Shown: positions 19,125 through 43,656 of the stretch, in pieces
How positions within the stretch are numbered: position 1 is the stretch's first letter
How the letters are laid out: each line of letters starts with the position of its first letter
DNA from: Devosia faecipullorum
GTDB lineage: Bacteria > Pseudomonadota > Alphaproteobacteria > Rhizobiales > Devosiaceae
Assembly: GCF_015158295.1 (NCBI RefSeq)
Contig: NZ_JACDXV010000006.1
Coordinates: 62,001 to 126,000 of the forward strand
Length of the DNA stretch: 64,000 nt
Direction: 5' to 3'
The notes under the pieces: model-generated
Databases searched by the model: none
Told to the model about the DNA's origin: nothing
What the model saw: the letters and a program-made list of their open reading frames with translations, nothing else
Program-made: the position numbers and the translations under genes

Positions 19125-19172
19125 TTGTCAGCTACCATAATTCTCGCTACTCATTGATAAGAGGTCAGACGA
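19125..19172 (+). promoter_or_regulatory. Promoter with GntR-type operator for the nucleoside hydrolase gene
   Basis: A TTGTCA (19125-19130) and TACTCA (19148-19153) separated by 17 nt make a reasonable sigma-70-like promoter. AGAGGTCAGAC at 19160-19170 lies just downstream, around the expected start site. The same 11-mer occurs at the island's GntR gene (25738) and the CoA-transferase promoter (40764). The rest of the 310-bp spacer (18876-19124) shows no gene. Confidence 0.5.
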
Positions 19173-19185
19173 CAGAGGAGTTATC

Positions 19186-25661: not shown

Positions 25662-25737
25662 CTTATCTCCTCGCGACCAGCCCCTGGGCATGGCATGATG
25701 TTGGCAATAGGAAACCACAAAACTGCAACAAGAAGCA

Positions 25738-25759
25738 AGAGGTCAGACTTTTGACCTCT
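25738..25759. promoter_or_regulatory. Operator palindrome AGAGGTCA-N6-TGACCTCT (GntR/HutC type)
   Basis: A perfect 8-bp inverted repeat (25738-25745 and 25752-25759) with a 6-nt spacer between the divergent GntR gene and acetamidase-like operon. Its left part AGAGGTCAGAC recurs at 19160 and 40764. The most likely ligand is the GntR protein encoded at 25815, acting as autorepressor and repressor of both operons. Confidence 0.65.
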
Positions 25760-25814
25760 GTCCTATTGACCGCCGAATTTCTTCATGCAAGCTTCACATC
25801 AAGCGAGGATCGCC

Positions 25815-29547: not shown

Positions 29548-30603
29548 ATGTCAAAATTCAACTTCAAGGCCGGGTTGGCCGTCGCCTCTCTCCTTGTCCT
29601 CTCTACTGTTTCAGTTGCTCTCGCAGGTCCGCGCGTCGCCATGGTGACGTCCGAATCCGGGCTGGGCGATCGCTCGTTCAACGACATGATGGTCGAAGGC
29701 ATGGAGCGCGCCAAGGCTGACTTCGATGCCGAATATGTCGTCATCCAGCCGCGTGCCGTTTCCGAGTTCCAGTCGGCTCTGGCTCGCGCCGCCGGTCAGG
29801 GCTTCGACATCATCATCGGCTCGTCCTTCGACATGATCGAACCGATGCGTGCCGTTGCCGAAGCTTTCCCTGACCAGAAGTTCGGTCTGGTGGACGTGGG
29901 TGACGAACCGATCGCCGACAACGTCGTGTCGACCGTTACCAAGGATTGGGAAGGTTCGTTCCTGGTTGGCTGGATCGCCGCCAAGACCACCAAGACCGGC
30001 ACTATCGGCTTTGTCGGTGGCGCTGATATTCCGATCATCCACCGCTTCTTCATTGGTTATTACTACGGCGCCAAGATGGCCAACCCCGATGTCAACGTGA
30101 TCGAGACCTATACCGGTTCGTTCACCGACCCGGCCGGCGGCAAGGAATTCACCCTCGCCAACGTCAACCAGGGTGCCGACATCAACTTCGCCGTGGCTGG
30201 TGCCACCAGCGCCGGCGTCATCGACGGTGCCGTTGAATCCAAGACCTTCGCCATCGGCGTCGACAGCAACCAGAACTACATGGCGCCCGGCTCGGTGCTG
30301 ACCTCCATGGTCAAGCGCGTCGATACGCAGGCCTATGACATGATCGCCTCTGTCGCCAACGACACCTTCGCCGGCGGCAACGTCCTCTACTACGGTCTCG
30401 CCGAAGACGGCGTCGGCGCTGCAATGGACGAGCACAATGAAGGCCTTATCGCCGACGAGATCCTGGCCGAAGTCGAAGACCTCAAGGGCAAGCTGCTCTC
30501 GGGTGAAATCGTTGTGCCGAACTACTTCGAACTGACTCCGGGCCAGCAGGAAATGGGCACGCCTCCGATGGCAACCCCGCCCTCCGTCGCCAACGCCAAG
30601 TAA
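29548..30603 (+). CDS. BMP-family ABC transporter substrate-binding protein
   Basis: Periplasmic binding protein of the BmpA/PnrA/Med family that captures nucleosides for import. Residues 1-26 are a Sec signal peptide (basic start, LAVASLLVLSTVSVALA) without a lipobox, so the mature protein is soluble. Family segments include SGLGDRSFNDMMVEGM, IIIGSSFDMIEPMRAVAEAFP, DWEGSFLVGWIAA and GFVGGADIPIIHRFFIGY, with aromatic residues expected to stack on the base. Length 351 aa. The ATG 29548 has GGGAAC upstream. A strong hairpin follows the gene, a common way to keep the binding protein in excess of the membrane subunits. Confidence 0.93.
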   Translation: MSKFNFKAGLAVASLLVLSTVSVALAGPRVAMVTSESGLGDRSFNDMMVEGMERAKADFDAEYVVIQPRAVSEFQSALARAAGQGFDIIIGSSFDMIEPMRAVAEAFPDQKFGLVDVGDEPIADNVVSTVTKDWEGSFLVGWIAAKTTKTGTIGFVGGADIPIIHRFFIGYYYGAKMANPDVNVIETYTGSFTDPAGGKEFTLANVNQGADINFAVAGATSAGVIDGAVESKTFAIGVDSNQNYMAPGSVLTSMVKRVDTQAYDMIASVANDTFAGGNVLYYGLAEDGVGAAMDEHNEGLIADEILAEVEDLKGKLLSGEIVVPNYFELTPGQQEMGTPPMATPPSVANAK

Positions 30604-30636: not shown

Positions 30637-30656
30637 TATTATTGGGGAGATTCTTA

Positions 30657-32228
30657 ATGGCAGCCGATTCTTCGACTCCCGTCGTGGAGATGCGCAACAT
30701 CGTCAAGCGCTTCGGTAATTTCACCGCGATCCACAACGCCAACATCACCATCGGACGCGGCGAAATTCACGCGCTGGTGGGTGAGAACGGCGCGGGCAAG
30801 TCGACACTGATGAACGTGCTTTATGGTCTGCTACAGCGCACCGAGGGTGAAGTGCTGCTGCGCGGCAAACCCGTTCATTTCAATACGCCCAACGATGCCA
30901 TCGCGCAGGGCATCGGCATGGTGCACCAGCATTTCAAGCTCGCACCCTCGTTCACCGTGGCCGAAAATATTGTGCTCGGCGCCGAACCGACGCTGGCCAT
31001 GGGCCGGCTGGATATGCGCCGCGCCGAAACCGAGACGGGCGAGCTGAGCAAGCGCTTTGGTCTCGATCTCGATCCGCGTGCCACTGTCGGATCCCTGTCC
31101 GTGGGCTTGCGTCAGCGCGTCGAAATTCTCAAGACGCTCTATCGCAAGGCCGAGGTCCTGGTCTTTGACGAGCCGACGGCCGTGCTCACGCCGCAGGAAA
31201 CGCGCGAACTCTTCGCCACCATGCGGCAGCTGGCCCAGTCGGGCCATTCGATCATTTTCATCACGCACAAGCTGCGTGAGGTCCTCGCCGTTTCAGACCG
31301 CATCTCGGTGATGAAGCAAGGCGAAATCGTCGCCACCATCGACAACAAGGACGTCACCGCTCAGGAGATCGCCAGCCTGATGGTGGGGCGCTCGGTACTC
31401 TTGCGCGTGGCCAAGGACGAAGCCAAGCCGGGCGGCCGCACCATGCTCAACATCAGCAATCTGACGGCGCTTGGCGAACGCGGGGAAAACGCGGTCAACA
31501 AGCTCTCGCTCAGCGTGCGCTCTGGCGAAATCGTCGGCCTTGCAGGCGTACAGGGCAACGGCCAGGACGAACTGGTCGAATGCATTGCCGGCCTGCGCCA
31601 GCCCGCAGCGGGCACGATCGAGATCTGCGACAGGCCGCTGGGCGCCACGCCCGCTGAAAACCGCGCCTCGGGCCTTGCCTATGTCCCGGCCGACCGCGGT
31701 GGCGTCGGTCTTTCGCTGCAGAGCGGCATCTGGGAGAACATGACGGTCGGCCACCTGCCCGAGTTCAAGCGGGGACCGTTTCTGTCGATCGGTGACGCGC
31801 GGGCCAAGGCCGACGAACTCATCAAGCGCTACGATGTGCGCGGCGCCACTCTCGACAAGGCCTCCGGTTCGCTCTCTGGCGGCAATCAGCAGAAGGTACA
31901 GATCGCCCGCGAATTGTCGCGTGAGGATGCCTCGCTCATCATCGCCGAACAACCCTCGCAGGGCGTCGATATCGGTGCGATCGAGTCGATCCACCGCATC
32001 CTCGTGGACATGCGCGACGCCGGTAAAGCGGTGTTCGTCATCTCAGCCGACCTCGACGAGATTTTCTCCATCTCCGACCGCATACTCGTGATCTATCGCG
32101 GTCAGATCGTCGCCGATCTCAAGGCGTCGGACACCACCCAGGAAGAAGTCGGCCGCTATATGGGCGGCCTTGAGACTCCGGTTGTGGATATCGACGCATC
32201 AGCCAAGGAACCAGCCCGTGTCGGTTGA
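30657..32228 (+). CDS. ABC transporter ATP-binding protein, two nucleotide-binding domains (nucleoside importer)
   Basis: Energises the BMP-type importer at the inner membrane. The 523-aa protein is a fusion of two ABC domains as in sugar and nucleoside (CUT2-like) importers. The N-terminal domain has Walker A GENGAGKST, signature LSVGLRQRVEILK and Walker B EVLVFDEPTAVL; the C-terminal domain has a degenerate Walker A (GVQGNGQDE) but a good signature LSGGNQQKVQIAREL and a Walker-B-like SLIIAEQPSQGVD. ATG 30657 follows GGGGAG; the in-frame TTG at 30642 precedes that site and is rejected. Its end overlaps the next permease gene by 11 bp. Confidence 0.94.
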   Translation: MAADSSTPVVEMRNIVKRFGNFTAIHNANITIGRGEIHALVGENGAGKSTLMNVLYGLLQRTEGEVLLRGKPVHFNTPNDAIAQGIGMVHQHFKLAPSFTVAENIVLGAEPTLAMGRLDMRRAETETGELSKRFGLDLDPRATVGSLSVGLRQRVEILKTLYRKAEVLVFDEPTAVLTPQETRELFATMRQLAQSGHSIIFITHKLREVLAVSDRISVMKQGEIVATIDNKDVTAQEIASLMVGRSVLLRVAKDEAKPGGRTMLNISNLTALGERGENAVNKLSLSVRSGEIVGLAGVQGNGQDELVECIAGLRQPAAGTIEICDRPLGATPAENRASGLAYVPADRGGVGLSLQSGIWENMTVGHLPEFKRGPFLSIGDARAKADELIKRYDVRGATLDKASGSLSGGNQQKVQIARELSREDASLIIAEQPSQGVDIGAIESIHRILVDMRDAGKAVFVISADLDEIFSISDRILVIYRGQIVADLKASDTTQEEVGRYMGGLETPVVDIDASAKEPARVG

Positions 32229-33333
32229 AACCCAGTCTGCACCAAAAACGCGTCCCTACCTGGCATCACTGCTGTCGGCAGTGGTCAATCCCATGATGGC
32301 CCTGGCCATCGCCGCCATCATCGGCGCCCTGCTGGTCATGGCGCTGGGTGAAAACCCCATCGAGGTTTACTGGCTGCTGATCTCGGGCAGCCTCATGGGC
32401 ATTCCCAACATGCTCGTCACGCTGCAGATGATGACGCCGCTGCTCTTCACCGGGCTTGCCGTCGCCATCTCCTTCCGTGCCGGCCTCGCCAATATCGGCG
32501 CCGAAGGCCAGATGCTGGTCGGCGCTCTGTGCGCTGGCATCGTTGGCTTCGCCGTCGACCTGCCGGCCCTGCTGCATGTGCCGCTCTGCATCGCTGCGGC
32601 CTTTGCCGGCGGCATGGCCTGGGCGGCTATCCCGGCCTTCCTCCGCGTCAAGTTCGGCGTCAACGAGCTGGTCGTCTGCCTGATGATGAACCCCATCGCA
32701 CTATTGCTGACCGGCTATTTCGCGACGCACGTGCTCAAGGCGCCCGGGCCAACCAACAAGCTGCCCGATGTGCTGGCCAGCGCCAAGCTGTCGACCTTCT
32801 CGTTCTATTCACAGGTCAATACCGGCATTATCCTGGCGCTGGTCCTCTGCGTGGTTCTCGCCATCGTCAATGCCCGCACTGTGCGCGGCTTTGAGTGGAA
32901 GATCATTGGCCTCAACCCCAAATTCGCCTTCTATGGCGGCATCGACGTGCCCAAACGTGCGCTCAATGTGTTCCTGCTCAGCGGCGGTGTCGCTGGTCTT
33001 GCCGGGGCAGAACAGGTGATGGGCCAGTTCGGCGCCTATTATGACAACTTCTCGCCCGGGTATGGCTTTGATGGTATTGCCGTGGCCATGCTGGCCCAGT
33101 TCCACCCCATCGGCGTGATCTTCTCGGCCTTCCTGTTCGGCGCGCTGAACAGTGGCAGCGGCGTGCTGCAGATGATGACCGGGCTGACCAAGCACCTGGT
33201 CCAGGTTCTGCAGTTCATCGTGGTCTTGGTGCTAGCCGCCAAGATTTCCTGGGACTGGCTGAACCACATCAAGAAGCCCATGGGCGAAATGACCATGCGC
33301 CCGTCGAGATCCAGCACGACATCGGAGACTTGA
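32218..33333 (+). CDS. ABC transporter permease 1 (nucleoside importer, BPD_transp_2 type)
   Basis: Integral inner-membrane subunit with about eight to ten hydrophobic segments (for example MALAIAAIIGALLVMAL, LLFTGLAVAISFRAGLANIG and IILALVLCVVLAIVNA). The family signature GLANIGAEGQMLVGAL and the cytoplasmic coupling region near GGVAGLAGAEQVMGQFG are present. The GTG at 32218 with GGA upstream overlaps the ATPase stop and gives 371 aa; the longer frame from 32170 would extend into the ATPase coding region. It pairs with permease 2, whose gene starts 1 bp after this stop. Confidence 0.92.
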   Translation: MSVETQSAPKTRPYLASLLSAVVNPMMALAIAAIIGALLVMALGENPIEVYWLLISGSLMGIPNMLVTLQMMTPLLFTGLAVAISFRAGLANIGAEGQMLVGALCAGIVGFAVDLPALLHVPLCIAAAFAGGMAWAAIPAFLRVKFGVNELVVCLMMNPIALLLTGYFATHVLKAPGPTNKLPDVLASAKLSTFSFYSQVNTGIILALVLCVVLAIVNARTVRGFEWKIIGLNPKFAFYGGIDVPKRALNVFLLSGGVAGLAGAEQVMGQFGAYYDNFSPGYGFDGIAVAMLAQFHPIGVIFSAFLFGALNSGSGVLQMMTGLTKHLVQVLQFIVVLVLAAKISWDWLNHIKKPMGEMTMRPSRSSTTSET

Positions 33334-33334
33334 A

Positions 33335-34258
33335 ATGGACATTGTAGAAGTCCTTTATTCGGCGGTGCGCGTGTCGACGCCGCTGGTCTATGCAGCAATG
33401 GGTGGCCTCCTCACCTATCAGGCCGGCATGCTCAACATCGCGCTTGATGGCTTCATGATCGTCGCCGCCTTTGCCGGCATCGCTACGGCCTTCGCCACCG
33501 GCAGCCTCGAGCTGGCGCTCATTGCGGCCGTCGTCAGCTCCGTGCTGCTGGCGGCGCTGATGGCCACCTTCACGTTCCGCTTCAAGGCCGACATCTTCAT
33601 CGCCGGCATCGCGGTAACTTTCCTCGCCTACGGGCTGACCGCGCTGCTGCTCAAGGGCGTGCTGGGCGAAGACGGCGTGTTCATGTCGAGCAGCATCCCG
33701 CGCTTCTCGCCCATCGTCCTGCCCTTCATCGCCGATATACCGGTGCTGGGGCGGATTTTGAGCGGGCACACAATCCTCGTTTATGTCGCCTACCTGTTCA
33801 TCCCGGTCATCGCCTGGGCGCTTTACAAGACGCGCTGGGGCCTGCGGGTTCGCATGGTCGGCGAAGCACCCGAGGCGGCGGCGGCGGCCGGCGTCAAGGT
33901 CACGAGCCTCAAGTTCCAGACCATGCTGCTGTCCGGTGTCCTCTGCGGTTTCGGCGGTGCCTATCTGTCGCTGGCCTATGTGTCGCTGTTCGCCAACCAG
34001 ATGACAGCCGAACGCGGTCTTATCGCCCTCGCGGCCATCTTCTTTGCCAAGGGCCGTCCGCTGCCCACCGCGCTGGTTGCACTGCTGTTCGGCCTCGCAA
34101 CCGCCCTCTCTGTCCGCCTGCCGCAGGTGACCGGTGCTGCGCCACAACTGCTGCAGCTAATCCCCTACGTGGTGACGGTTTTGGCGCTGGTAATTGTCGG
34201 TGTGCGCACGGCGCGGGCCCGCAACAAGCACGGTGCCTGGAAGTTCGCACTGGACTGA
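33335..34258 (+). CDS. ABC transporter permease 2 (nucleoside importer)
   Basis: Second membrane subunit, 307 aa, with eight or so hydrophobic segments and the typical N-terminal STPLVYAAMGGLLTYQAGMLN plus LNIALDGFMIVAAFAG, equivalent to the NIG-EG motif of permease 1. GLRVRMVGEAPEAAAAAGV matches the cytoplasmic coupling loop of this family. It closes the plus-strand operon of eight genes (regulator, kinase, SIS, BtpA, binding protein, ATPase, two permeases). With the binding protein it forms a complete importer, probably for nucleosides given the BMP family, the nucleoside hydrolase and deoC. Confidence 0.92.
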   Translation: MDIVEVLYSAVRVSTPLVYAAMGGLLTYQAGMLNIALDGFMIVAAFAGIATAFATGSLELALIAAVVSSVLLAALMATFTFRFKADIFIAGIAVTFLAYGLTALLLKGVLGEDGVFMSSSIPRFSPIVLPFIADIPVLGRILSGHTILVYVAYLFIPVIAWALYKTRWGLRVRMVGEAPEAAAAAGVKVTSLKFQTMLLSGVLCGFGGAYLSLAYVSLFANQMTAERGLIALAAIFFAKGRPLPTALVALLFGLATALSVRLPQVTGAAPQLLQLIPYVVTVLALVIVGVRTARARNKHGAWKFALD

Positions 34259-34272
34259 GGCAATAGAGAAAC

Positions 34273-34308
34273 CAGAACGCTGGCGGCTATGGCTGCCGGC
34301 GTTCTGCC
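34273..34308. other. Hairpin between convergent importer and SIS operons
   Basis: CAGAACGC-T-GGC at 34273-34284 pairs with GCC-G-GCGTTCTG at about 34295-34306, overlapping the last codons of the minus-strand SIS gene. There is no T-run, so it is a possible but not canonical terminator. Confidence 0.4.
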
Positions 34309-35396
34309 AAAGCACAGGCTATGCGCTGTCCAACCGAAAGATAGACCAGCGCCGAGAGCCGCTCGATCATGGCGGGCAGCCGAAATACGGTTCCCGCGTC
34401 AAGGGTGGCCAGCGGACTGTCATCCGCCACGACAAGCCCCATCGCCCCATCACCCTGCCGCCGTCCGAGAACGAGCTGCGCCCGCCTGACGCTGAGCCCA
34501 TTGGGCGCGATCACCAGCGTGGCAATGGATGGATTGGCCGGAATCTCGCCCAGAGCTTCCAGTCCGCACTGTGTGACTGGCCGGCCCAAAACCGCGCCGA
34601 TCCAATCCGCACTCGCTGCTGCTGCGGCGCGGGCCGCTCCGTTGCCGACGACGATAATATGCCCAGCCATCTCAAGTCGGGCTGCGAAAGCTCTATCGGC
34701 GTCAGTCGGGATCAAGCATTGCTCCAGTTGCCGGGGCATGGCAGCAAGCGCCGCGCCCAGTTGCGCCAGCCTGGCTGCCGCTACGCCATTCAGTTCACCC
34801 AGCGCCAGACCAAGTCGATAGGCCATGGCCAGCAGCAGGCTCGGATCGGCAATAGGATCTGCGGGGGCACCCAAGCGCCAGACAGCGTGACCATACTGAT
34901 CATATTGTGCGTCACCACCCGCGGTGAGGACCAGCGTGAAGGCACCGAGCGCCCTCGCGGCCAGCGTTGCCTCGAGGCTGCGCCAGGGTGTCTCCGTTGC
35001 TGCGAGCACGATGACGAGGCAATCGGCATTGACGGCCTGCCGTGCGTAATAGGCAAAGTCCGTACTGTCGATTGCCTCGCAGGGTGTCCCGCCAAGCATT
35101 TCCTCGAACAACGGGCGCAGCCCCTGCGCGGCGGCCAACGCCGCGCAGGTTCCCACGAGATAGGCCTTGCGGATCGACCGGGGCGGCATGGGATCGAGCG
35201 TCGGCCCACCCCCACCAAGAATATCGGCGATCTGGCCATGAAGATGATCGAGGGCAAGCCTCATACCCGCCGCTGTCCAGCGGCGGGTATGAGGGGCGTT
35301 CTCTTCTTCCGTCATCAGCCCGGCAATCAGCGCCTGGTCGGCGGCGCCAATCGGCGAGTCTGGACCGAGGAGCGGATGCGCGAAGACGAAGCTCAT
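34287..35396 (-). CDS. SIS-domain protein, copy 2 (divergent, AgaS/GlmS-like)
   Basis: A 369-aa protein with two SIS-like halves, only distantly similar to copy 1 at 27536. The first half has RKAYLVGTCAALAAAQGLRP and LVIVLAATETPWRSLEA where the usual SGxT loop is altered to AATETP; the second has MAGHIIVVGNGAARAAAAAS and ECGLEALGEIP-like QCGLEALGEI. The changed phosphate loop means it may bind a different ligand or have lost isomerase activity. It is the last gene of the long minus-strand operon 40745-34287 and its start overlaps the epimerase stop by four bases. Function unknown. Confidence 0.75.
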   Translation of the reverse strand: MSFVFAHPLLGPDSPIGAADQALIAGLMTEEENAPHTRRWTAAGMRLALDHLHGQIADILGGGGPTLDPMPPRSIRKAYLVGTCAALAAAQGLRPLFEEMLGGTPCEAIDSTDFAYYARQAVNADCLVIVLAATETPWRSLEATLAARALGAFTLVLTAGGDAQYDQYGHAVWRLGAPADPIADPSLLLAMAYRLGLALGELNGVAAARLAQLGAALAAMPRQLEQCLIPTDADRAFAARLEMAGHIIVVGNGAARAAAAASADWIGAVLGRPVTQCGLEALGEIPANPSIATLVIAPNGLSVRRAQLVLGRRQGDGAMGLVVADDSPLATLDAGTVFRLPAMIERLSALVYLSVGQRIACALAERRQP

Positions 35397-36304
35397 TGTG
35401 CCGCCGTGGTCTGTGCCAGGCTCTCTGCATATAGGGCGATGCCACGCGCCAGAGGCATCTGCGGCATCCAGCCGAGATCGCGCGCGATGGCCGAAATATC
35501 GAATTCGCGCTGGATATCGGGCACGTCGTCCTGTCCCGCGACCATCGCTATACGCGCGCCCGGCAATGCCTGCTGTGCCGTAGCCACGATATCAGGCATG
35601 GTCAGCGCTTCGCCACCGGCCACATTGTAGCGCCGCTCCGGCAGTCTGCCTGCATCGAGCGCCGTGATGATGGCGCCAACCACGTCGTCCACATGGACAT
35701 AGTGATACATGAAGTTCGGATCACACGGGATGACTGTCCCATTGCCTGCGAGGTGATTGCGGATCACATCGGCAAGCACGCAATTGCCCCGGCGATGCGG
35801 CCCATAGACCCGCGCAATGCGCAGGCTTACGCCATCGAGACCGTGCTCGGTCAGGAAAGCATCGACCAGCGCCTCGCCGGAAACCTTGCTGGCGGCATAG
35901 ACCGAGGTCGGACGCAGGGGCGTGGCTTCATTGATGACGCCCGGCCCGACACTGCCATAGACGCTGATCGACGAGCAGAACACGAAGCGACGCACCCCGT
36001 GGCGACGAGCCTGATCCATCAGCCGCGCCGTGCCAGCGATATTGACGTCGACCACCAGCCCAGGATTGTCACGCGCCAGCATTGGCCCGGAAATCGCACC
36101 GCAATGAATAACGGCGGTAATGTCGTGGTTCGCGAACAGGGCTTCGACGGCTGCCTGGTCCGTCAGCTGCGCGATGATCAGGTCGGGGTCGTCCCGTCCG
36201 TGGCTGACGGCATCGGTCGCGACGACCGGTCGCCCCAATTGGGCCAGTCGCTGGCGCAGTGCCATGCCGACGAGGCCCGCGCCTCCGGTGATCAGGATGC
36301 TCAT
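35393..36304 (-). CDS. NAD-dependent epimerase/dehydratase (extended SDR), copy 2
   Basis: Extended SDR of 303 aa, related to copy 1 at 23776-24690. Rossmann motif ITGGAGLVGMAL, catalytic Ser in FCSSISVYGS, and Tyr-Lys in SVYAASKVSGEAL. Shared VYGPHRRGNC and YNVAGGEALTMPDIV segments suggest the same reaction class on a related sugar acid or nucleotide sugar. Start ATG 36304 overlaps the SDR stop (ATGA), which rules out the very long upstream frame to 36730 that runs antisense-like through the SDR gene in another frame. It is positioned between the SDR dehydrogenase and the SIS gene, implying a sugar-modifying branch. Confidence 0.85.
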   Translation of the reverse strand: MSILITGGAGLVGMALRQRLAQLGRPVVATDAVSHGRDDPDLIIAQLTDQAAVEALFANHDITAVIHCGAISGPMLARDNPGLVVDVNIAGTARLMDQARRHGVRRFVFCSSISVYGSVGPGVINEATPLRPTSVYAASKVSGEALVDAFLTEHGLDGVSLRIARVYGPHRRGNCVLADVIRNHLAGNGTVIPCDPNFMYHYVHVDDVVGAIITALDAGRLPERRYNVAGGEALTMPDIVATAQQALPGARIAMVAGQDDVPDIQREFDISAIARDLGWMPQMPLARGIALYAESLAQTTAAQ

Positions 36305-37047
36305 AGCGCCACCATTCCGCCATCGACGCTGAGGTCCGCGCCGGTCACGAAGGACGAACCCGCCGAGCACAGGAACACGATGGTCTCGGCCACTTCTTCG
36401 GACTGTGCGAAGCGACCGATCGGCGTCAGCGGCAGGAAGGCAGCGCGCTGCGCATCGGTCACCGTGCGCTGGATGCCGGTCATCGTCGTGCCGGGAGAGA
36501 CCGAGTTGATCTGAACATTGTCGGCGGCGTATTGCACGCCGGCCTGCCGCGTCAGGGCGAGGACTGCTCCCTTGGAGGCGCAATAGACGGCCGCGTCGCG
36601 CAGCCCGATATGGGCGGCAGTCGAGGCCACGTTGCAGATCTTGCCGCGCTTGGCCGCCACCATGGCGGGCAACACGGCCTGCATGCCGAGCCACACGCCC
36701 TTGGCGTTGATGCTCATCATCTGGTCCCACATGTCCTCGGTGCTGCCGATCACGCTGTCGCCGGGCATGGCGATACCCGCATTGTTGACGAGCACGTCGA
36801 TGCGGCCAAACCGGACCAGGAGGTCAGCGACCAGCTTGTTCCAGGCCGCGCCATTGCGCACATCCATGGTCGCGCCGATGACGGTGCAACCCTTGGCCGT
36901 CAATTCGGCCTCGACCTCTTCCACGCCCCTGACATCGATGAGCACCACAATGCCACCCAGCTCGGCAAAGCGCCGTGCGGAGGCGCGGCCAATGCCGTCG
37001 CCGGCTCCGGTCACGAGGATAATCTGGTCGGCGAAGTCGTCTGTCAT
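36301..37047 (-). CDS. Short-chain dehydrogenase/reductase (classical SDR)
   Basis: NAD(P)-dependent oxidoreductase of 248 aa. The cofactor loop is VTGAGDGIGRASARRFAELG; the NNAG motif is in DVLVNNAGIAMPGD; the catalytic triad Ser-Tyr-Lys lies in VASTAAHIGLRDAAVYCASKGA. The Asp in VVLIDVRG suggests NAD rather than NADP. The gene overlaps both the amidase stop (ATGA at 37044-37047) and the epimerase start. Substrate unknown; sugar alcohols, sugar lactones or hydroxy acids are common for this subclass. Confidence 0.88.
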   Translation of the reverse strand: MTDDFADQIILVTGAGDGIGRASARRFAELGGIVVLIDVRGVEEVEAELTAKGCTVIGATMDVRNGAAWNKLVADLLVRFGRIDVLVNNAGIAMPGDSVIGSTEDMWDQMMSINAKGVWLGMQAVLPAMVAAKRGKICNVASTAAHIGLRDAAVYCASKGAVLALTRQAGVQYAADNVQINSVSPGTTMTGIQRTVTDAQRAAFLPLTPIGRFAQSEEVAETIVFLCSAGSSFVTGADLSVDGGMVAL

Positions 37048-38453
37048 GGCAGTATCCTCGATGGAATGAGCGGCGCATGCGCCAGGTTGGAAAGGGTGGA
37101 TGCAGCAAACTCGATCAGCGCGCGATCTCGTCCGGGCGCCGCGATGATCTGGACGCCGATGCCGCCGCCATCTTCGGTCATGGCCAACGGCACATTCAGC
37201 GCGGGTAGACCGGCAACATTGGCCCAGGCGGTGAAAATGGCATGGCCGCGCGGCCCGACATCCTGCCCGTCGATGGTGTCGGGATAGGGCTGGCGCGCGT
37301 CCCAGGCGAGCGCCGCAATCGTCGGACTGATCAGCAGGTCGACATGCTCGAAGAGACGTCGTGCCAATGTCCGCACCTGCTGTGCGCCAGCGAGTGCGTC
37401 AATGTAGTCGGCGCCCGACACTGCCATTCCGGCCTCGACCATCTTGCGCGTGTTTTCGCTGGTTTCCCGCGCGATGAGGTGTCGGCTGACGTGCCAGGCG
37501 AGCCCGGCCTGCGCCACGGTGTGCCAGACCGCGTTGGCGCCAGCGGCGTCGAACGGTTCTGCACTAACTTGCACCGGCCAAGCCAGCGTCTCCAACTGGC
37601 GCACAAACCCAGAAAAAGCCGCGACCACGCGCGGATCGACCGGCGCGCCTGCCACTGTGTCGAATGTCAGGATGCGCGGCTGCGTCGGCATTGTATCGCC
37701 TGGTTGATAGGCGCCCCGGCTGCGTGGGTCGGCATCGTCAGGCCCGGCCATGATGGCCAGGATAGCTGCGAGGTCCGCGGCATCGCGCGTCACCGGACCG
37801 ATCACCTCGAAGTCATTCAGGATTGCGGGAAAGCCGCCCGCCCGTGCAATTGTGCCGATCGACGGCTTGAAGCCCCACAAGCCGCAATGGGCGGCCGGGC
37901 GACGGATCGAACCACCTCCGTCAGTGCCGATGGCTATCGGACCAAACCCTGCCGCGACGGCTGCCGCGCCGCCGCCTGTCGAGCCACCCGGCGTCCGGTC
38001 GGGTGCCAGCGGGTTGAACGTCGGTCCAAAAAGGGCATTGTCGGTATAGCCCTGGAGCGTAAATTCGGGGACATTGGTCTTGCCCAGCACAAGCAACCCG
38101 GCGTCCCGCAGGCGGCGCACAGCTGGCTCGTCGGTATCAGGCCGGTCGTGCTCATGCGCGCGGCTGCCCCAGCGCGCCGGCAGGCCTGCAACGTGAATGT
38201 TGTCCTTGATGGTGATCGGCACGCCATCGAGCGGCGAGAGCGGCTTACCCACCTGCCAGCGTGCGTCCGCCCCACGAGCGGCCTGCAACAGAGCTTCGGA
38301 ATCCTGCGCGATGATCGCATTGATCGCAGGATTGATCGCCTCGATCCGCTTTTCTATGGCTGCTACGGCCTCGCTTGGCCGCATTTGTCCCGTGCGAAAA
38401 CGGGCTGCCAGTTGTAGCGCCGTCAGGTCCCAGATGGGTGTATTGTCGGTCAT
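37044..38453 (-). CDS. Amidase (amidase signature family)
   Basis: Hydrolyses a C-N amide bond. The Ser-cisSer-Lys triad is complete: Lys83 in PITIKDN, Ser158 in RTPGGSTGGGAAA, and nucleophile Ser182 in IGTDGGGSIRRPA. Length 469 aa, standard for the family. It overlaps the monooxygenase stop and the SDR start by four bases each, so it is translationally coupled to both. In this operon, downstream of a ring-opening amidohydrolase, it is a good candidate for hydrolysing the linear ureido or amide product (a ureidomalonase-like role). That role is inference; generic amidases of this family vary widely in substrate. Confidence 0.9.
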   Translation of the reverse strand: MTDNTPIWDLTALQLAARFRTGQMRPSEAVAAIEKRIEAINPAINAIIAQDSEALLQAARGADARWQVGKPLSPLDGVPITIKDNIHVAGLPARWGSRAHEHDRPDTDEPAVRRLRDAGLLVLGKTNVPEFTLQGYTDNALFGPTFNPLAPDRTPGGSTGGGAAAVAAGFGPIAIGTDGGGSIRRPAAHCGLWGFKPSIGTIARAGGFPAILNDFEVIGPVTRDAADLAAILAIMAGPDDADPRSRGAYQPGDTMPTQPRILTFDTVAGAPVDPRVVAAFSGFVRQLETLAWPVQVSAEPFDAAGANAVWHTVAQAGLAWHVSRHLIARETSENTRKMVEAGMAVSGADYIDALAGAQQVRTLARRLFEHVDLLISPTIAALAWDARQPYPDTIDGQDVGPRGHAIFTAWANVAGLPALNVPLAMTEDGGGIGVQIIAAPGRDRALIEFAASTLSNLAHAPLIPSRILP

Positions 38454-39640
38454 CTCGGTCTCGGCGCGTCACGATAAAGCTGCTGCAATTTTTCGAGAAA
38501 CGCCGGCTCGAGCTTCCTTGCCGTCCCCGCGACCGGGTCCGCGCCAGCCAGCATGGTGTCGGTTGCGTCGCGCGAAAAGCCAGTCACGAAATCGATGCGC
38601 TTCTGTCGTCGCGCTGCAAAGCGTTCGGGCACCACGTTCAGTTCGACGCCATCGGCGAGCGCATGGCGGATTTCGTCCACCAGCACGCAGGCATCCTCGA
38701 TCGACTGCGTCGCACCTTGCCCCAGCGTGGGCAGCATGGGATGCGCCGCATCCCCGGCAAGCACCGCGCGGGAGGCACCGACCAGCCGGGTCTCTCGTTC
38801 CTGCAGGCGCGCCCAGTGCAATTGCGCCTCATCATCCCCTATGGCATCCAGCAGAAACCGCACGCTCTCGGCTGTTGCGCCGGAAGCCGGTACGAATAGC
38901 GCCCGAATGGCGTCCGTGAGCTTCATCGATTCCGGGATCGAGGTGTCCCCCTGCAGCGGAAACGAGCCAGCGCAGTAGACGAGGTTTCCCGGAATGCGGA
39001 ATGCCAACAGGCGGTTCGGCCCGTTGAACCATTGGGCGTAATCGTCGATCGGGCTGTCGGCCGGAGCCGGACACAGGAGCCGGAACAGCGCAATGCCGGG
39101 ATGCTGGATTGGGTCCGGCGCCAACAGGCTGTCCCGCACCAGCGAGTAGCGGCCATCGGCGGCGATCAGCAGATCAAGAGCGTCGATCTCGTACGTCCCG
39201 CTGTCGTCCCGCATCTGCATGAACGGCCGATCTTCGGTCTGGCCCGCCGCTACAACTTCTGTGCCATAGCGGATCGTGCTGCCCGCCGACGCCCGCAGCC
39301 TGGCATTGAGTTCTGCCCAGCCGATGCGGAGACCCGGATTGTCCGCCAATTGGCCGAGATCGAACTGCGCCAGCGGCGTGCCATCCGTCAGGGCAATCGT
39401 CCAGTCGCTCCAGGGCAGGCCCCCCGAGCTGAGATGGCTGGCAACGTCGGGCAAAAACAGCCGTAACGCCTTGACGGCGTTGGGTCCGATATTGAGCCCG
39501 GTGCCGGCATCGAGCTGCGCCCCTTGCGGACTGCGCTCGCAGCAGATCACCTCGACATCGTCACGGTCGGCAAAGCCAGCGGCCACGAGACTGCCCACGA
39601 CGCCGCCGCCCGCCACGCCAATACGAAACCTGCGGCTCAC
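38450..39640 (-). CDS. FAD-dependent monooxygenase (class A, salicylate/urate/nicotinate hydroxylase-like)
   Basis: NAD(P)H-dependent flavoprotein that hydroxylates an aromatic or heteroaromatic ring. FAD-binding motifs are visible: IGVAGGGVVGSLVA at the N-terminus, DLLIAADGRYSLVRDSL (the DG motif), and VLAGDAAHPMLPTLGQGA (the GD motif) near residue 285. Length 396 aa, no membrane segment. The start is GTG 39640, 1 bp after the ring-opening amidohydrolase stop, so the two are coupled. Relatives include urate hydroxylase HpxO and 6-hydroxynicotinate 3-monooxygenase. In this setting it may oxidise a pyrimidine or purine-type base before ring opening; no experiment supports that yet. Confidence 0.87.
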   Translation of the reverse strand: MSRRFRIGVAGGGVVGSLVAAGFADRDDVEVICCERSPQGAQLDAGTGLNIGPNAVKALRLFLPDVASHLSSGGLPWSDWTIALTDGTPLAQFDLGQLADNPGLRIGWAELNARLRASAGSTIRYGTEVVAAGQTEDRPFMQMRDDSGTYEIDALDLLIAADGRYSLVRDSLLAPDPIQHPGIALFRLLCPAPADSPIDDYAQWFNGPNRLLAFRIPGNLVYCAGSFPLQGDTSIPESMKLTDAIRALFVPASGATAESVRFLLDAIGDDEAQLHWARLQERETRLVGASRAVLAGDAAHPMLPTLGQGATQSIEDACVLVDEIRHALADGVELNVVPERFAARRQKRIDFVTGFSRDATDTMLAGADPVAGTARKLEPAFLEKLQQLYRDAPRPR

Positions 39641-39641
39641 C

Positions 39642-40745
39642 TCAATGGCTCGCGCGTTCGACGATCAGAGCCAGCATGCCACCGCCATCTGGTCCCTGAT
39701 GTTCGGCACCACCCGAAACGAACAGCGCCGTATCGCCCAGCACGCTGGCGGCAATAGCGCCGACCGCACCGCGAATGTGGCGCTGCTGATCGATATCGCC
39801 GTCGGTCAGCATGGTATGCACCCGGCCGCGAATCTTGCCGCTGCGCGATGCCTCGCATTTGATGAAACCGGCGCGCAATCGCTGCGTCTGTTCGGCATCA
39901 AGCTGCGGGTCCGCCGTCATGTCGAGCTGGTTGAGCACGGCGTGAATGCCCTTGATATCGAGGGCGTCCGCCATAGTGCCGTGGGCAATGGTCAGCGGAC
40001 CTGACCAGTGCTCGCTCATGCCGACCACGATCACCTCGTTGCAGCGCACTTCTGTGCCGGCCGAGCAACTGCCGACCGAGGTGAAAAGCCAAAAATCCTT
40101 GAGCACTGCAGCTTCCACTGCCGCATCCGTCGAAATTTCTCCCAGCGCCTTGCCAATGCCAAAGGCCGATGCCGAGCGACCCAGTGCCATCAGCCGACCG
40201 GCATTGTCCGACACCAGCGGGTGCTTAGCCGCGAGAATATCTTCCGTCCCGAAAGCCGGCCCCTTCACCTGCACGAAATGCACGTCTTTCGCCGAAGCGA
40301 TGCCGGCCGATGCCATGGCCCGCTGCACGGCAATAGCTGTCGTATCGATCTGGATCTGGCGACCGATCTCGCCCGGATCGTAGTCCGGCGTAAAGGCCAC
40401 GCCGATCGCCAGGGCCGGTCCGCCGGAACTAGTCTCTGCTTCGCGCGCGGCGAAAACGGTATAATGCGCTGAAAGCACGCCCTCGACGCCGCCCGAAAAC
40501 ACAAAGGGCACGCGCTGCCGCACGGCTTCCGGCGTCTCGCCCGTATGCCTTGCGATCAACAGGGCCAGTGAGAGCGTCAGATAGCCACGCGTATGGTCGT
40601 TGACGAGGCCGTTGCCATGCGTCTTGCCGATCACGGCGACGATGTCGTGGGCCGCCAGGTCACCTGCAAGGAGCGCTTGCTCCAATTCTGACACATCACC
40701 TGGATCCGACAGAGGAAAGCGGAAAACGTCGCAGCGCATATTCAT
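39642..40745 (-). CDS. Ring-opening amidohydrolase (cyanuric acid hydrolase/barbiturase family)
   Basis: Member of the small family (PF09663) that opens cyanuric acid or barbituric acid rings. The threefold Ser-Lys arrangement is present in 367 aa: Lys41 (VIGKTHGNG) with Ser84 (FSGGVEGV), Lys161 (VQVKGPAF) with Ser226/Ser228 (GSCSAGTE), and Lys296 (GFIKCEAS) with Ser344 in the diagnostic VSGGAEHQGPDGGG. ATG 40745 or 40739 is the start; both lack a strong ribosome-binding site. It heads the minus-strand operon with the monooxygenase and amidase. With no s-triazine genes nearby but many nucleoside genes, a pyrimidine-derived (barbiturate-like) substrate is more likely than cyanuric acid. Confidence 0.9.
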   Translation of the reverse strand: MNMRCDVFRFPLSDPGDVSELEQALLAGDLAAHDIVAVIGKTHGNGLVNDHTRGYLTLSLALLIARHTGETPEAVRQRVPFVFSGGVEGVLSAHYTVFAAREAETSSGGPALAIGVAFTPDYDPGEIGRQIQIDTTAIAVQRAMASAGIASAKDVHFVQVKGPAFGTEDILAAKHPLVSDNAGRLMALGRSASAFGIGKALGEISTDAAVEAAVLKDFWLFTSVGSCSAGTEVRCNEVIVVGMSEHWSGPLTIAHGTMADALDIKGIHAVLNQLDMTADPQLDAEQTQRLRAGFIKCEASRSGKIRGRVHTMLTDGDIDQQRHIRGAVGAIAASVLGDTALFVSGGAEHQGPDGGGMLALIVERASH

Positions 40746-40755
40746 ACCCAGACCA

Positions 40756-40787
40756 TTGACATCAGAGGTCAGACCACATGGTATAGG
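40756..40787 (+). promoter_or_regulatory. Promoter with internal GntR operator upstream of the CoA-transferase operon
   Basis: TTGACA at 40756-40761 is a consensus -35. AGAGGTCAGAC at 40764-40774, extending to the GGTCAGACC palindrome (40767-40775), occupies the spacer, and TGGTAT/TATAGG at 40779-40787 is the likely -10. The arrangement places the operator under RNA polymerase, as for a classic repressor. The same spacer must also carry the promoter of the divergent ring-opening amidohydrolase operon. Confidence 0.55.
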
Positions 40788-40879
40788 CAAACCGGCGACG
40801 CAGGCAAGTATGGCTGTCGCAATATGTGCATTGAAGCCGTGGCAGCCTCCGGGGCGCTTGCGGAATTTTGGAGGATCAG

Positions 40880-42070
40880 ATGACAAATCAACAGGCTCAA
40901 TTCGGCGCGGGCGCCCTGGTGGGAATGCGCGTGCTTGACGTGAGCCAGGTCATGGCTGGTCCCTTTTGCTGCATGATGCTGGGCGATATGGGCGCCGACG
41001 TCATCAAGGTCGAACCCCCCAAGGGCGGCGATCAGACGCGCCGAGCCATGGGCTTCAAGCTCAAGGGCGATGACAGCCTCGGCTTCCTCAACATGAACCG
41101 CAACAAACGCTCCATCGCCATCGATCTCAAAAGCGATGAAGGCCGTGAGATATTCTATGCTTTGGCCAAGACAGCCGATGTCATCGTCGAAAACTACCGC
41201 CCCGGCACCATGAAGAAGCTGGGGATCGACTACGACACGATCAGCAAGATCAATCCCGGCATCATCTATGCAAGCATTTCGGGCTTCGGCCAGACCGGCC
41301 CCTGGGCTGACCGGCCCGGATTCGACCTGATTGCCCAGGCCGCGACCGGCGTCATGAGCATTACCGGCCACCCCGGTGGCCCACCGGCCAAGTCCGGCGT
41401 TCCGGTCACCGATATCGGCTGCTCGCTGTTCGCGCTCTACGCCATCCTTACTGCCTATATTGGACGGCAGAAGACCGGACAGGGCCAGCATATCGATGCC
41501 TCACTCTATGACGCCGGCATCGCCTTCGCCGTCTGGGACATCTGCGAATATTGGGGCACCGGCAACGTGCCCGAGCGCATCGGAACGGCCAACCGCATGG
41601 CGGCGCCCTATCAGGCTGTGCAGGCCAGCGACGGTTATTTCGTCTTCGGCGCCAATAATGACCGGCTCTATGAACGCCTCTGCGAAGTCATCGACCGCCC
41701 CGATCTGTTGAGCCACCCGAACTATGCCACCAATGCCCTGCGTATGGCCAATCGAGAGGCGCTGATCGGCGAACTCGAACAGAGCTTTACCCAGTGGACG
41801 CGCGAAGAATGCGTCGACAAGCTGCTGGCAGTGGGCATCCCGGCCGGGCCGATCAATGACTATGCCGAGGCGCTGGAGAACGAACATGCTCGCGAGCGCG
41901 ATGTGGTGATGAAGATCGATCATCCAATCGAGGGCGAGGTCAATTCCATCGGCTTCCCGGTGCGCCTCTCCGGCACGCCGCAAAAGGTGCGCCGTCCGCC
42001 GCCGCTTCTAGGCGAACATACGGACGAAATCCTGCGCGAGCTGGGCATCGAACCGGCGACAGTCCAATGA
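40880..42070 (+). CDS. CaiB/BaiF class III CoA-transferase
   Basis: Transfers CoA between carboxylic acids, activating a catabolic acid. The N-terminal VLDVSQVMAGPFCCMMLGDMG and ADVIKVEPPKGGD are classic for the family; the catalytic Asp lies in GPWADRPGFDLIAQAATG (about residue 160). Other hallmarks are NRNKRSIAIDLKSDEGRE and the C-terminal PPLLGEHTDEIL. Length 396 aa. ATG 40880 has GGAGG 5 nt upstream; the TTG at 40868 is rejected. It overlaps the crotonase gene (ATGA). Its promoter carries the island operator, tying it to nucleoside use. Malonate or a related diacid released from a pyrimidine ring would be a logical acceptor; this is inference. Confidence 0.92.
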   Translation: MTNQQAQFGAGALVGMRVLDVSQVMAGPFCCMMLGDMGADVIKVEPPKGGDQTRRAMGFKLKGDDSLGFLNMNRNKRSIAIDLKSDEGREIFYALAKTADVIVENYRPGTMKKLGIDYDTISKINPGIIYASISGFGQTGPWADRPGFDLIAQAATGVMSITGHPGGPPAKSGVPVTDIGCSLFALYAILTAYIGRQKTGQGQHIDASLYDAGIAFAVWDICEYWGTGNVPERIGTANRMAAPYQAVQASDGYFVFGANNDRLYERLCEVIDRPDLLSHPNYATNALRMANREALIGELEQSFTQWTREECVDKLLAVGIPAGPINDYAEALENEHARERDVVMKIDHPIEGEVNSIGFPVRLSGTPQKVRRPPPLLGEHTDEILRELGIEPATVQ

Positions 42071-42837
42071 GCGCCTCTGCCATTGTGCTGACGGTAGACG
42101 GGCCGGTCGCGCGGATCCGCATCGACCGCCCTGAAGCCCGCAACGCCATGACCCTCGCCATGTATGAGGCGCTGGTCACTACGTTGGGTGAATTGCGTGA
42201 CGATGGCGCAGTGCGCCTGCTGGTGCTCGAAGGCGACGACAAGGCCTTCGCGGCGGGCACAGAGATTTCCGAGTTCACCGCCTTCACTTCGGGCCGCGAT
42301 GGCCTCGCCTATGAGGCCAAGGTGGAGCAGGTGGTCAACACGCTCGAGACTATGCCATTCCCCACCCTCGCTGCAGTAAAGGGCGTGGCCACCGGTGGCG
42401 GGTTGATGCTCGCCGTCGCTTGCGACCTGCAAGTTATGTCGGCCACCGCCCGCATCGGCGCGCCGATTGCCCGCACGGTCGGCAATTGCCTGTCGTCTCG
42501 CAATCTGGCGCGCTTGCAAACGCTGGTGGGTCCGGCGCTGCTGCGCCGCATGCTGTTCGCCGCCGAACTGGTCAAGGCGACGGAGATTTCGGGCAGTGCC
42601 TTCCCGACCTGGATCGTCGAACCCGAAAGCTTCGATACCGTGCTCACCGAAAAGATTGAGACCATTGCCGGCGCCGCCCCGCTAACGCAGCGCGCCACCA
42701 AGGCCTCCCTGGTGCGCATTGCCGGCGGCGACCTTGAGGACGCCGATATCATTGAGCGAACCTATGGCAGCACTGATTTTGCCGAAGGTGTCGGCGCATT
42801 TCTCGAACGCCGCAAACCAATATGGCAAAACCGCTGA
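42067..42837 (+). CDS. Enoyl-CoA hydratase/isomerase family (crotonase)
   Basis: A 256-aa crotonase-fold enzyme acting on a CoA thioester made by the adjacent CoA-transferase. The oxyanion-hole segments are KAFAAGTEISEF and VKGVATGGGLMLAVACDL. The position where hydratases usually have the second catalytic Glu (the PE-GL-P segment) reads GAPIARTVGNCLS, so it may not be a normal hydratase; the crotonase fold also hosts decarboxylases and isomerases. It overlaps the CoA-transferase by ATGA and is followed after 24 bp by the hydratase gene. Reaction undetermined. Confidence 0.86.
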   Translation: MSASAIVLTVDGPVARIRIDRPEARNAMTLAMYEALVTTLGELRDDGAVRLLVLEGDDKAFAAGTEISEFTAFTSGRDGLAYEAKVEQVVNTLETMPFPTLAAVKGVATGGGLMLAVACDLQVMSATARIGAPIARTVGNCLSSRNLARLQTLVGPALLRRMLFAAELVKATEISGSAFPTWIVEPESFDTVLTEKIETIAGAAPLTQRATKASLVRIAGGDLEDADIIERTYGSTDFAEGVGAFLERRKPIWQNR

Positions 42838-42861
42838 CATCGTTTGAATAAGGGGCGAACG

Positions 42862-43656
42862 ATGGACGACGCACAGGCCATAGCCGATAGATTTCTGCTT
42901 GCGCGCCGAAACAGTCGCTACCTCAAGGCATTTCCAGGTGCTCAGCCCGCAACGCTGGCTGACGCCTATAGGGTGCAGGAGCGCATGCTGGCAGGCTACC
43001 CCGTTGAGCCTGTCGGCTGGAAGGTCGGAAGCATTGCTCCTCGCATGGCTGCAATCCTCGGTGCCGACCGCCTCGTCGGTCCCATCGTGAACCTAGCCCA
43101 CGCACCCGCCGGCGTCATGGTCGAGGCCCCCCTGATTTCAGGCGGCTTCGGCGCCGTCGAGGCCGAGATCGCCCTGCTGATCGGCAGCGATATCCCTGCC
43201 CAACGCGAACCTCCTGTGATGGCTGAGTTGGCTGCCCATGTGGCCAGCACACACATTGCCGCCGAGATCGCCGGCAGTCCGCTCGCCACCATCGTCGACC
43301 TTGGGCCCACGGCCGTCATATCCGACCATGGCAACAACCTTGCAGTTGTGATCGGCGACACCATACCCAACGGCCTCGCTCAATCGCTGGACAGTCTGAC
43401 CTGTACGGTCAGCATCGATCAGGCGGCAATCGCGTCTGGCAGTGCCGGACAGGTCCCCGGCGGTCCCTTGGCCGCCCTGTCCTTTCTCGTACAGCAGTTA
43501 GCCACGCGCGGCAGGTCGCTGAAACGAGGCGATTGGGTCAGTACCGGCGCAATGACCGGTGTGCACAGCGTGGCACCCGGCATGCAGGCTGAACTTGATT
43601 TCGGCGCCCATGGCCGCATTCCCATCCGGTTCGTCCAAGCGACGACCGGGCATTAG
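42862..43656 (+). CDS. 2-keto-4-pentenoate hydratase / 2-oxo acid decarboxylase-like (FAH/MhpD superfamily)
   Basis: A 264-aa enzyme of the fumarylacetoacetase-fold hydratase family, using a divalent metal to hydrate or decarboxylate 2-oxo acids. Typical features include the N-terminal AIADRFLLARRN and DAYRVQERMLAG, GWKVGSIAPRMA, the metal-binding EAEIALLIGSDIP region with Glu residues, and the C-terminal VSTGAMTGVHSVAPGMQAELDFG. ATG 42862 has AAGGGGCG upstream; the in-frame TTG at 42844 is rejected. It is last in the CoA-transferase operon. Its presence points to a 4-oxo or 2-oxo acid intermediate, and it may belong to the ring-degradation branch. Confidence 0.85.
   Translation: MDDAQAIADRFLLARRNSRYLKAFPGAQPATLADAYRVQERMLAGYPVEPVGWKVGSIAPRMAAILGADRLVGPIVNLAHAPAGVMVEAPLISGGFGAVEAEIALLIGSDIPAQREPPVMAELAAHVASTHIAAEIAGSPLATIVDLGPTAVISDHGNNLAVVIGDTIPNGLAQSLDSLTCTVSIDQAAIASGSAGQVPGGPLAALSFLVQQLATRGRSLKRGDWVSTGAMTGVHSVAPGMQAELDFGAHGRIPIRFVQATTGH

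Follow-up and report, generated by a model that had tools for sequence, protein, structure and literature searches.

Annotation tends to label proteins of the PF09663 family as cyanuric acid hydrolase (CAH), an enzyme known from pollutant breakdown, and a member of this family that lies beside genes for nucleoside uptake raises the question of which ring it opens. Such a protein, here called ROA (ring-opening amidohydrolase), is encoded in a 64,000-nucleotide stretch of Devosia faecipullorum (the whole stretch is referred to as the window), where it heads an operon with a class A flavin monooxygenase (FMO) and an amidase within an island of ~22 genes in five transcription units (19.2-43.7 kb of the window). 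We propose, at a probability of about 0.55, that this island is an inducible five-unit regulon that would import and mineralise a nucleoside-like compound, the base of which would be a cyclic ureide or imide and not uracil, thymine or cyanurate. What can be read directly from the sequence in this respect is a shared operator, conservation of the genes, their co-occurrence in other genomes and a distinct clade of ROA proteins. The own signature of this clade, its recurrent FMO partner and its operator tie to nucleoside uptake would give these proteins a concrete natural role; if this is true, the automated annotation NCBIfam NF052395 mislabels proteins of the ROA clade.

A shared operator across five transcription units

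The sequence AGAGGTCAGAC was spotted by eye as common to the intergenic promoter DNA between the ROA and CoA-transferase genes and that between the FmdA and GntR genes (coordinates in Table 1). The window contains exactly three copies, one per promoter, of which the third lies 15 bp ahead of the start of the nucleoside hydrolase gene; with one mismatch allowed there are 4 copies, against 0.61 expected. Its 8-base core, AGAGGTCA, was found by eye from the promoters of the window and of its relative G291, and occurs in 16 copies in 17 other loci, 12 of them at promoters of ROA or of the GntR gene of the sugar module (GntR-PfkB-SIS1-BtpA-BMP importer). A 22-bp operator model was trained on nine sites located with AGAGGTCA, none from the window or G291, and the four sites of Table 1 are its top four scores in the window, the best score in 20 random 64-kb sequences being 15.3. 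Across 98 loci (1.19 Mb, the window included, some overlapping), all scores of at least 15.4, but for one of 16.0 in L075, fall at promoters of ROA, sugar-module GntR or nucleoside hydrolase genes. Of the sites not used in training, the main ones come from the window, G291, L034, L037, L046 and L040/L054 (17577). The ROA promoter carries the operator in 10 of the 15 genomes of the ROA clade, five of which trained the model, and no operator was found in the nucleoside clusters L087 and L088 or in the other FMO-linked loci L048, L049 and L073 (best score 9.8).

Because they share this operator, the units of the nucleoside hydrolase, FmdA-EpimA-DeoC-ALDH, GntR-PfkB-SIS1-BtpA-BMP, ROA and the CoA genes look like one nucleoside regulon under one operator motif. 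The initial annotation had linked the ring opener to a BMP importer and a nucleoside hydrolase, and the window indeed holds both, with the shared operator at the promoters of their units; that the nucleoside hydrolase is an accidental neighbour was rejected on the presence of the operator at its promoter. The GntR/UTRA protein is the candidate regulator. A NagR/YvoA-type operator, TGGTATAGACCA, gave 6 matches in the window with up to 2 mismatches (1.03 expected; 0 shuffles reached 6), of which the match at 40779 alone lies at a promoter by eye; it was dropped in favour of the motif seen in the promoter DNA. An Rfam scan of 18000-45000 returned nothing at gathering score, and therefore no hint of a riboswitch.

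A distinct clade of ring openers

ROA is a full-length member of PF09663, covering 357 of the 358 profile positions, and among solved proteins AtzD is its closest relative (302 bits). A 61-row tree places ROA in a clade of 16 rows (support 99/100; one row is a duplicate of the window protein), and two other FMO-linked ROAs form a separate branch (99/97). AtzD and the enzyme of Rhizobium leguminosarum 3841 belong to another group, of 42 rows (95/71), and ROA lies outside it, not grouped with the characterised cyanuric acid hydrolases. This tree does not settle in which order the 16-row clade, the pair of FMO-linked rows and the remaining rows branch, and its root row is a very long branch. Six positions are altered in 16 of 16 clade rows and in 0 of 44 others.

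For the comparison of residues, 63 rows were aligned and one divergent row was set aside, leaving 62; the numbering of AtzD is shifted in the second and third repeats, and positions there were therefore mapped by sequence motif. The six catalytic Lys/Ser residues, together with the active-site Arg and Gly residues, are kept in all 62 rows. At the position of AtzD Thr321, Gln is found in 15/15 clade rows and in 3/3 further FMO-linked ROAs, Glu in 9/9 rows of a second clade (ROA2) and Thr in 35/35 cyanurate-type rows. The first Lys is followed by His (GKTHG; His43) in the ROA clade and by Glu in the other 47 rows, the 15 clade rows having been picked by His43, which is thus constant by construction; this choice agrees with the clade of the tree. 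In addition, Phe replaces Met84, and the neighbours of the second and third Lys are altered. According to the available part of PMC3758960, Thr321 is a specificity residue, the AtzD-like signature is Arg195, Thr321, Arg325, Gly345 and Gly346, and the barbiturase signature is Asn195, His321, Lys325, Val345 and Ser/Ala346. ROA has Arg, Gln, Arg, Gly and Gly at these positions and, as judged against that part of the source, keeps four of the five AtzD residues and none of the five barbiturase residues. Compared with AtzD/TrzD, which belong to the same family (Toblerone fold), ROA retains the three Lys/Ser pairs and three active-site Arg but differs in its clade, in the substitutions at Thr321, Glu and Met84, in its FMO partner and in that no biuret hydrolase was seen beside it; a structure paper on Azorhizobium (PMC4051656, available in part) belongs to the same background. 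Taken at the level of the protein sequence, the ROA clade is a separate class of ring opener with its own active-site signature.

Other PF09663 loci were met during these comparisons. Three genomes (G065, G741 and G497; loci L073/L074, L048/L077 and L049) carry a Gln321-type ROA with an FMO and, by eye, NMT1-type importer genes, near a second PF09663 protein that is of the Glu321 type with an amidase in G065 and G741 and of the cyanurate type in G497; BMP importer genes adjoin this second protein in G065 and G497, and none were seen in G741. The ROA2 clade (Glu321, Trp for Met84) is represented by L078 and L075 (G282 and G236), each with an amidase and a BMP importer, G282 having a GntR gene and a class V aminotransferase as well; ROA2 looks like another candidate specificity class of PF09663. 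A very divergent PF09663 protein (L060, in G202, a genome of the same taxonomic family as that of the window) is ~27% identical to AtzD, with barbiturase 5hwe as its nearest solved protein and altered active-site motifs.

Conservation and co-occurrence in relatives

Neighbourhoods were compared in 15 clade genomes including that of the window, with fetched stretches of 7.7 to 64 kb, several of which stop at contig ends, and with identity thresholds for presence that we set ourselves. FMO (13/15), SDR (12), amidase (11) and EpimB (11) recur most often, followed by a class V aminotransferase (AT5, 10) and an ECF transporter (7), and a second ROA is present in four. Every gene of the sugar module, from GntR/UTRA to the permeases, is found in eight genomes, not always the same eight. 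The CoA-transferase (6/15), crotonase (5/15) and FAH (2/15) genes are not conserved parts, which counts against the chemistry proposed in the initial annotation. The two Verrucomicrobiota, which are metagenome assemblies, yielded no FMO ortholog.

Besides the window, eight relatives combine the ROA and FMO genes with the GntR-PfkB-SIS1-BtpA-BMP module, which is partly cut off or on another contig in three cases (G762, G760 and G766), G766 being a ninth genome with a close BtpA, split across separate short contigs. Two further samples, of 151 and 297 genomes, overlap the 15 clade genomes: among the 151 (our own included), FMO was found in seven (E 1e-40) and BtpA in six (E 1e-60), the six all being among the seven, and among the 297, taken order-wide, BtpA was found in four (E 1e-45), each with PF09663. 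Ring-opening genes are also present in Rhizobium lusitanum, Rhizobium sp. BK313 and Phyllobacterium, where BtpA is only distant (30-33%) and ROA-FMO-amidase-SDR-EpimB adjoins an ECF transporter. A search of plasmids for FMO gave nothing at E 1e-40, and FMO is absent beside the cyanurate-type comparison loci, a local absence only, since most of these loci span 2.8-4.1 kb.

Probable nucleoside import and the sugar module

The BMP importer of the window is closest to those of the nucleoside clusters L087/L088: its BMP protein shares 40% and its ATPase 47% identity with those of an importer beside DeoC-ALDH elsewhere in the same genome, and the two share 39% and 46% with those of an importer adjoining a purine nucleoside phosphorylase. 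The corresponding identities are 28-30% and 34-38% where the importer belongs to a cyanurate cluster, and 27-30% and 37-41% for ROA2 clusters and L049. The cyanurate cluster of R. leguminosarum/johnstonii 3841 (L063; BMP importer, formamidase, isochorismatase-type hydrolases and CAH) resembles the window in having a BMP importer and a formamidase-family gene near a PF09663 gene, but its importer subunits are only 30% (BMP) and 34% (ATPase) identical to those of the window, and its annotated stretch has no kinase, SIS, BtpA or monooxygenase. This likeness of the importer, together with the operator and the eight relatives that have both modules, upholds the idea that ring opener, FMO and amidase belong with the importer and the nucleoside hydrolase.

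The sugar module recalls fructosamine (frl-type) operons, in which GntR, PfkB kinase and SIS deglycase families also stand in a row; unlike these, the window adds BtpA, the BMP importer and the ring-opening operon, and its scores against frl models are far below cut-off, SIS1 having a weak match to fructosamine-6-phosphate deglycases. A retro-Amadori step of the fructosamine type conflicts with the presence of DeoC, because it would not work on deoxyribose. BtpA is predicted to be a TIM barrel (pLDDT 88) with closely tied fold matches, PRAI first, then ribulose-phosphate epimerase, HisF, HisA and thiamin phosphate synthase; a sequence search of the PDB gave nothing up to E = 1, and our literature search found no biochemical role for the family. 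BtpA probably acts with PfkB and the SIS protein on a sugar phosphate, and the island provides it with a coherent context. Among distant BtpA homologues (L065-L072), a PfkB-type kinase adjoins in 5/8 loci and sugar importers are often near by eye, a lead to the role of the BtpA/SgcQ family.

Enzymes proposed to act on the base

The nearest solved relatives of FMO are weak matches (60 bits or less): tropone 2-monooxygenase, 6-hydroxynicotinate 3-monooxygenase and salicylate hydroxylase. Monooxygenases of this type are not known to oxidise uracil, and none of the three is known to produce barbiturate; FMO as a uracil oxidase was considered and rejected. It seems likelier that FMO hydroxylates an enolic or enamine product after ring opening, perhaps with decarboxylation, than that it oxidises intact uracil. 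The amidase comes closest to urethanases and GatA, and the crotonase has a 106-bit match, far below cut-off, to methylmalonyl-CoA decarboxylase. A role of EpimB and SDR as sugar enzymes was rejected, as the three genomes that lack a close BtpA have both genes too; for the same reason, they probably act on the base-derived acid.

An ECF transporter lies beside the ring-opening operon in L036, L038, L045, L033, L040, L041 and L046; its S component, examined in L036, is PF09819, the YkoE family of thiamin-pyrimidine uptake, and its substrate could be the free base. AT5 of L036 best matches the aspartate-glyoxylate aminotransferase BhcA (431 bits, cut-off 650), with a further match of 177 bits to pyridoxamine-pyruvate transaminase; a search without positive control found no match to AT5 in the genome of the window. 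L035 has a GMC oxidase.

Elsewhere in the genome of the window, a cluster (L086, G000:C3:113353-119581) encodes dihydropyrimidinase (600 bits, above cut-off), carbamoylase, omega-aminotransferase and the methylmalonate-semialdehyde dehydrogenase MmsA, beside a RutR-like regulator below cut-off. Dihydropyrimidine dehydrogenase, the first enzyme of the reductive route, was not pinned down (112-bit match, below cut-off, to a related family). Because the genome has this cluster for reductive pyrimidine catabolism, the base of the regulon is not likely to be uracil or thymine.

A proposed pathway and its alternatives

Our model would begin with uptake of the nucleoside by the BMP transporter, after which the nucleoside hydrolase and/or the PfkB kinase, BtpA and SIS1 would release the base and give a pentose phosphate, a deoxyribose form being handled by DeoC/ALDH. 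The Ser-Lys centre of ROA would open the ring to a ureido- or amido-carboxylate, and FMO would hydroxylate this electron-rich open product, perhaps releasing CO2 in the manner of 6-hydroxynicotinate 3-monooxygenase. The amidase would then remove urea or ammonia, SDR and EpimB would oxidise the hydroxy acid, and in Devosia-type genomes and the two Verrucomicrobiota the CoA-transferase may pass on the acid, with a crotonase in 5/6 of these. Rhizobium and Phyllobacterium probably import the free base by the adjoining ECF transporter. We put forward more tentatively, at less than even odds, that this is a further nucleobase route beside the reductive, Rut and barbiturate routes, in which a Gln321-class ROA opens the base of a modified or oxidised (deoxy)nucleoside before a dedicated FMO hydroxylates it, with everything from importer to CoA ester in one regulon and a core found across several families of Hyphomicrobiales. 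A literature search, judged by title and the opening of the abstract and with subscription journals mostly outside its coverage, found no description of this cluster.

Several observations weigh against this model. NF052395, the NCBIfam equivalog for cyanuric acid amidohydrolase, assigns ROA to its family (421, cut-off 360), and known cyanurate clusters likewise lie beside BMP importers. The nucleoside hydrolase is close to ROA, and its operator site seen, in the window only (1/15), and DeoC is present in only 3/15 clade genomes plus contig-end fragments in two more, on BtpA contigs. Four of the 16 copies of AGAGGTCA elsewhere are away from ROA or sugar-module GntR promoters, and five of the 15 clade genomes have no operator of at least 15.4 at ROA (L038, L041, the Verrucomicrobiota L039 and L042, and the 7.7-kb contig L043). 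The operator model is in part tied to the window because its training sites were located with a window-derived core, and its scores in the window are support, not independent discovery. The Rhizobium stretches L036 and L045 keep the ROA operator with no GntR/UTRA gene seen there (whole genomes were not searched), so that this protein as regulator is unproven. The counts in the overlapping genome samples are not independent, and some of the co-occurrence of linked genes stems from their moving together. The fold matches of BtpA are tied among many phosphate-binding barrels.

The name given by NF052395 would fit a pathway for cyanuric acid (s-triazine) of the rhizobial CAH-BiuH-TrtA or the atzDEF kind, beside which the nucleoside cluster merely lies, and so would AtzD as best solved relative, the four AtzD signature residues that ROA keeps, and the BMP importers of known cyanurate clusters together with, in Rhizobium, their formamidases; however, ROA stands outside the 42-row group, six positions are altered throughout its clade, and its operon, in which no biuret hydrolase was seen, supplies an FMO and two dehydrogenases that are of no use for biuret, and we consider this pathway highly improbable. 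The initial annotation had instead proposed that the monooxygenase oxidises uracil or thymine to (methyl)barbiturate, that ROA acts as barbiturase, that the amidase yields (methyl)malonate and urea and that the CoA-transferase activates the product. Gene order and family types fit this scheme, the class III CoA-transferase and crotonase adjoin ROA, the crotonase has its match, far below cut-off, to methylmalonyl-CoA decarboxylase, and Rhodococcus-type barbiturase (Bar) shares with ROA its family and the pairing of ring opener and amidase genes. Set against it are the absent Bar signature, the reductive cluster (although its first enzyme was not pinned down), the patchy CoA genes and the weak relatives of FMO; the window has an amidase and a monooxygenase, but no enzyme was matched to uracil oxidase. 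The initial annotation is thus partly supported, in that its observation of the gene set and its idea of linkage stand while its chemistry, which we regard as quite unlikely, is not supported.

A base derived from a vitamin-type pyrimidine or a flavin (thiamin pyrimidine, lumichrome), or some other glycosylated heterocycle in place of a nucleic-acid nucleoside, from which the sugar module would remove a glycosyl or ribityl group, would account for the ECF transporter in 7/15 genomes, with its YkoE-family component in L036, and for AT5 with its matches to BhcA and pyridoxamine-pyruvate transaminase, the latter recalling vitamin B6 breakdown together with the GMC oxidase of L035. Against such a base stand the absence of an AT5 match in the window's genome, in the search described above, and the window's nucleoside hydrolase, DeoC and nucleoside-type importer, which indicate nucleosides. 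The solved lumichrome pathway (Lum, Nocardioides simplex) likewise opens a pyrimidine-dione ring hydrolytically at an early stage, but in the available part of its description it relies on other hydrolases (LumH/I/M) and on P450 and Rieske enzymes, and a PF09663 protein is not named there (PMC12746152); riboflavin or lumichrome as the leading explanation was rejected on this ground, and the vitamin-type base as a whole appears unlikely. Two unrelated pathways, one for the sugar or nucleoside and one for ring opening, brought together by chance or by shared horizontal transfer, would agree with the patchy distribution and with Rhizobium and Phyllobacterium having ring-opening genes without a close BtpA. 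This is very unlikely in view of the operator common to both promoters in the window and its relatives, and of BtpA never being found, at the E-value limits used, without FMO (151 genomes) or PF09663 (297 genomes). We favour the single nucleoside regulon over these alternatives.

Gene models of the island

Table 1. Genes and operator sites of the island, with positions in the window; the last column gives presence in the 15 clade genomes
Feature	Position	Strand	Match or score	Clade genomes
Operator, upstream of nucleoside hydrolase	19153..19174	-	20.5 bits	
IU-type nucleoside hydrolase (IunH), shared operator at promoter	19186..20145	+		1/15
ALDH, double-domain aldehyde dehydrogenase adjoining DeoC	20255..22627	-		3/15
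DeoC, deoxyribose-phosphate aldolase	22796..23779	-	second genomic copy elsewhere, 88% identical	3/15
EpimA, epimerase-like protein	23776..24690	-		
FmdA, acetamidase/formamidase-family protein	24687..25718	-		
Operator, FmdA/GntR divergent promoter	25731..25752	-	25.3 bits	
Second, inverted operator, FmdA/GntR promoter	25745..25766	+	22.3 bits	
GntR/UTRA, candidate regulator of operator	25785..26600	+		8/15
PfkB-family sugar kinase	26597..27511	+		8/15
SIS1, GlmS/fructosamine-6-P-deglycase-like sugar isomerase	27536..28678	+		8/15
BtpA-family phosphate-binding TIM barrel	28678..29481	+		8/15
BMP (PnrA-like) substrate-binding protein	29548..30603	+		8/15
BMP importer, double ABC ATPase	30642..32228	+		8/15
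BMP importer, permease 1	32170..33333	+		8/15
BMP importer, permease 2	33335..34258	+		8/15
SIS2, weak SIS-domain protein	34287..35396	-	below Pfam cut-off	5/15
EpimB, extended-SDR epimerase-like dehydrogenase	35393..36304	-		11/15
SDR, classical dehydrogenase	36301..37047	-		12/15
Amidase-signature hydrolase	37044..38453	-	PF01425, 313 bits	11/15
FMO, class A flavin monooxygenase, partner of ROA clade	38450..39640	-	PF01494, 45 bits	13/15
ROA, ring-opening amidohydrolase, clade with His43 and Gln321	39642..40745	-	PF09663, 398 bits, cut-off 25	
Operator, ROA/CoA-transferase divergent promoter	40757..40778	-	16.2 bits	
Class III CoA-transferase	40880..42070	+	460 bits	6/15, including two Verrucomicrobiota
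Crotonase-family protein	42067..42837	+	127 bits	5/15
FAH-type hydratase-like protein	42844..43656	+	marginal, 24.0 bits, cut-off 23.9	2/15

ROA is the sole PF09663 gene found in the 3.4 Mb genome, and its best named match is a protein of Devosia subaequoris, 80% identical (G291, marked as the same genus); strain DSM 23447 of that species carries the same island (L032/L055). Its open frame extends over 39642-40886 (minus strand), and the start is probably the ATG (MNMRC) at 40745. The three Lys-Ser pairs previously named (K41/S84, K161/S228 and K296/S344) are exact when counted from this ATG; counting from the Met two residues further on gives 39/82, 159/226 and 294/342. The range 39642-43656 that had been assigned to the gene set spans ROA and the divergent CoA genes but omits the FMO and amidase named with them. 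Family matches confirmed all of these genes, the FAH-type one with a marginal match. The operon that ROA heads with these two is longer than had been described (ROA-FMO-amidase-SDR-EpimB-SIS2, spanning 40745 to 34287, its junctions measuring +1, -4, -4, -4 and -4 bp), and the class III CoA-transferase, crotonase and FAH-type genes run in the opposite orientation from ~40880.

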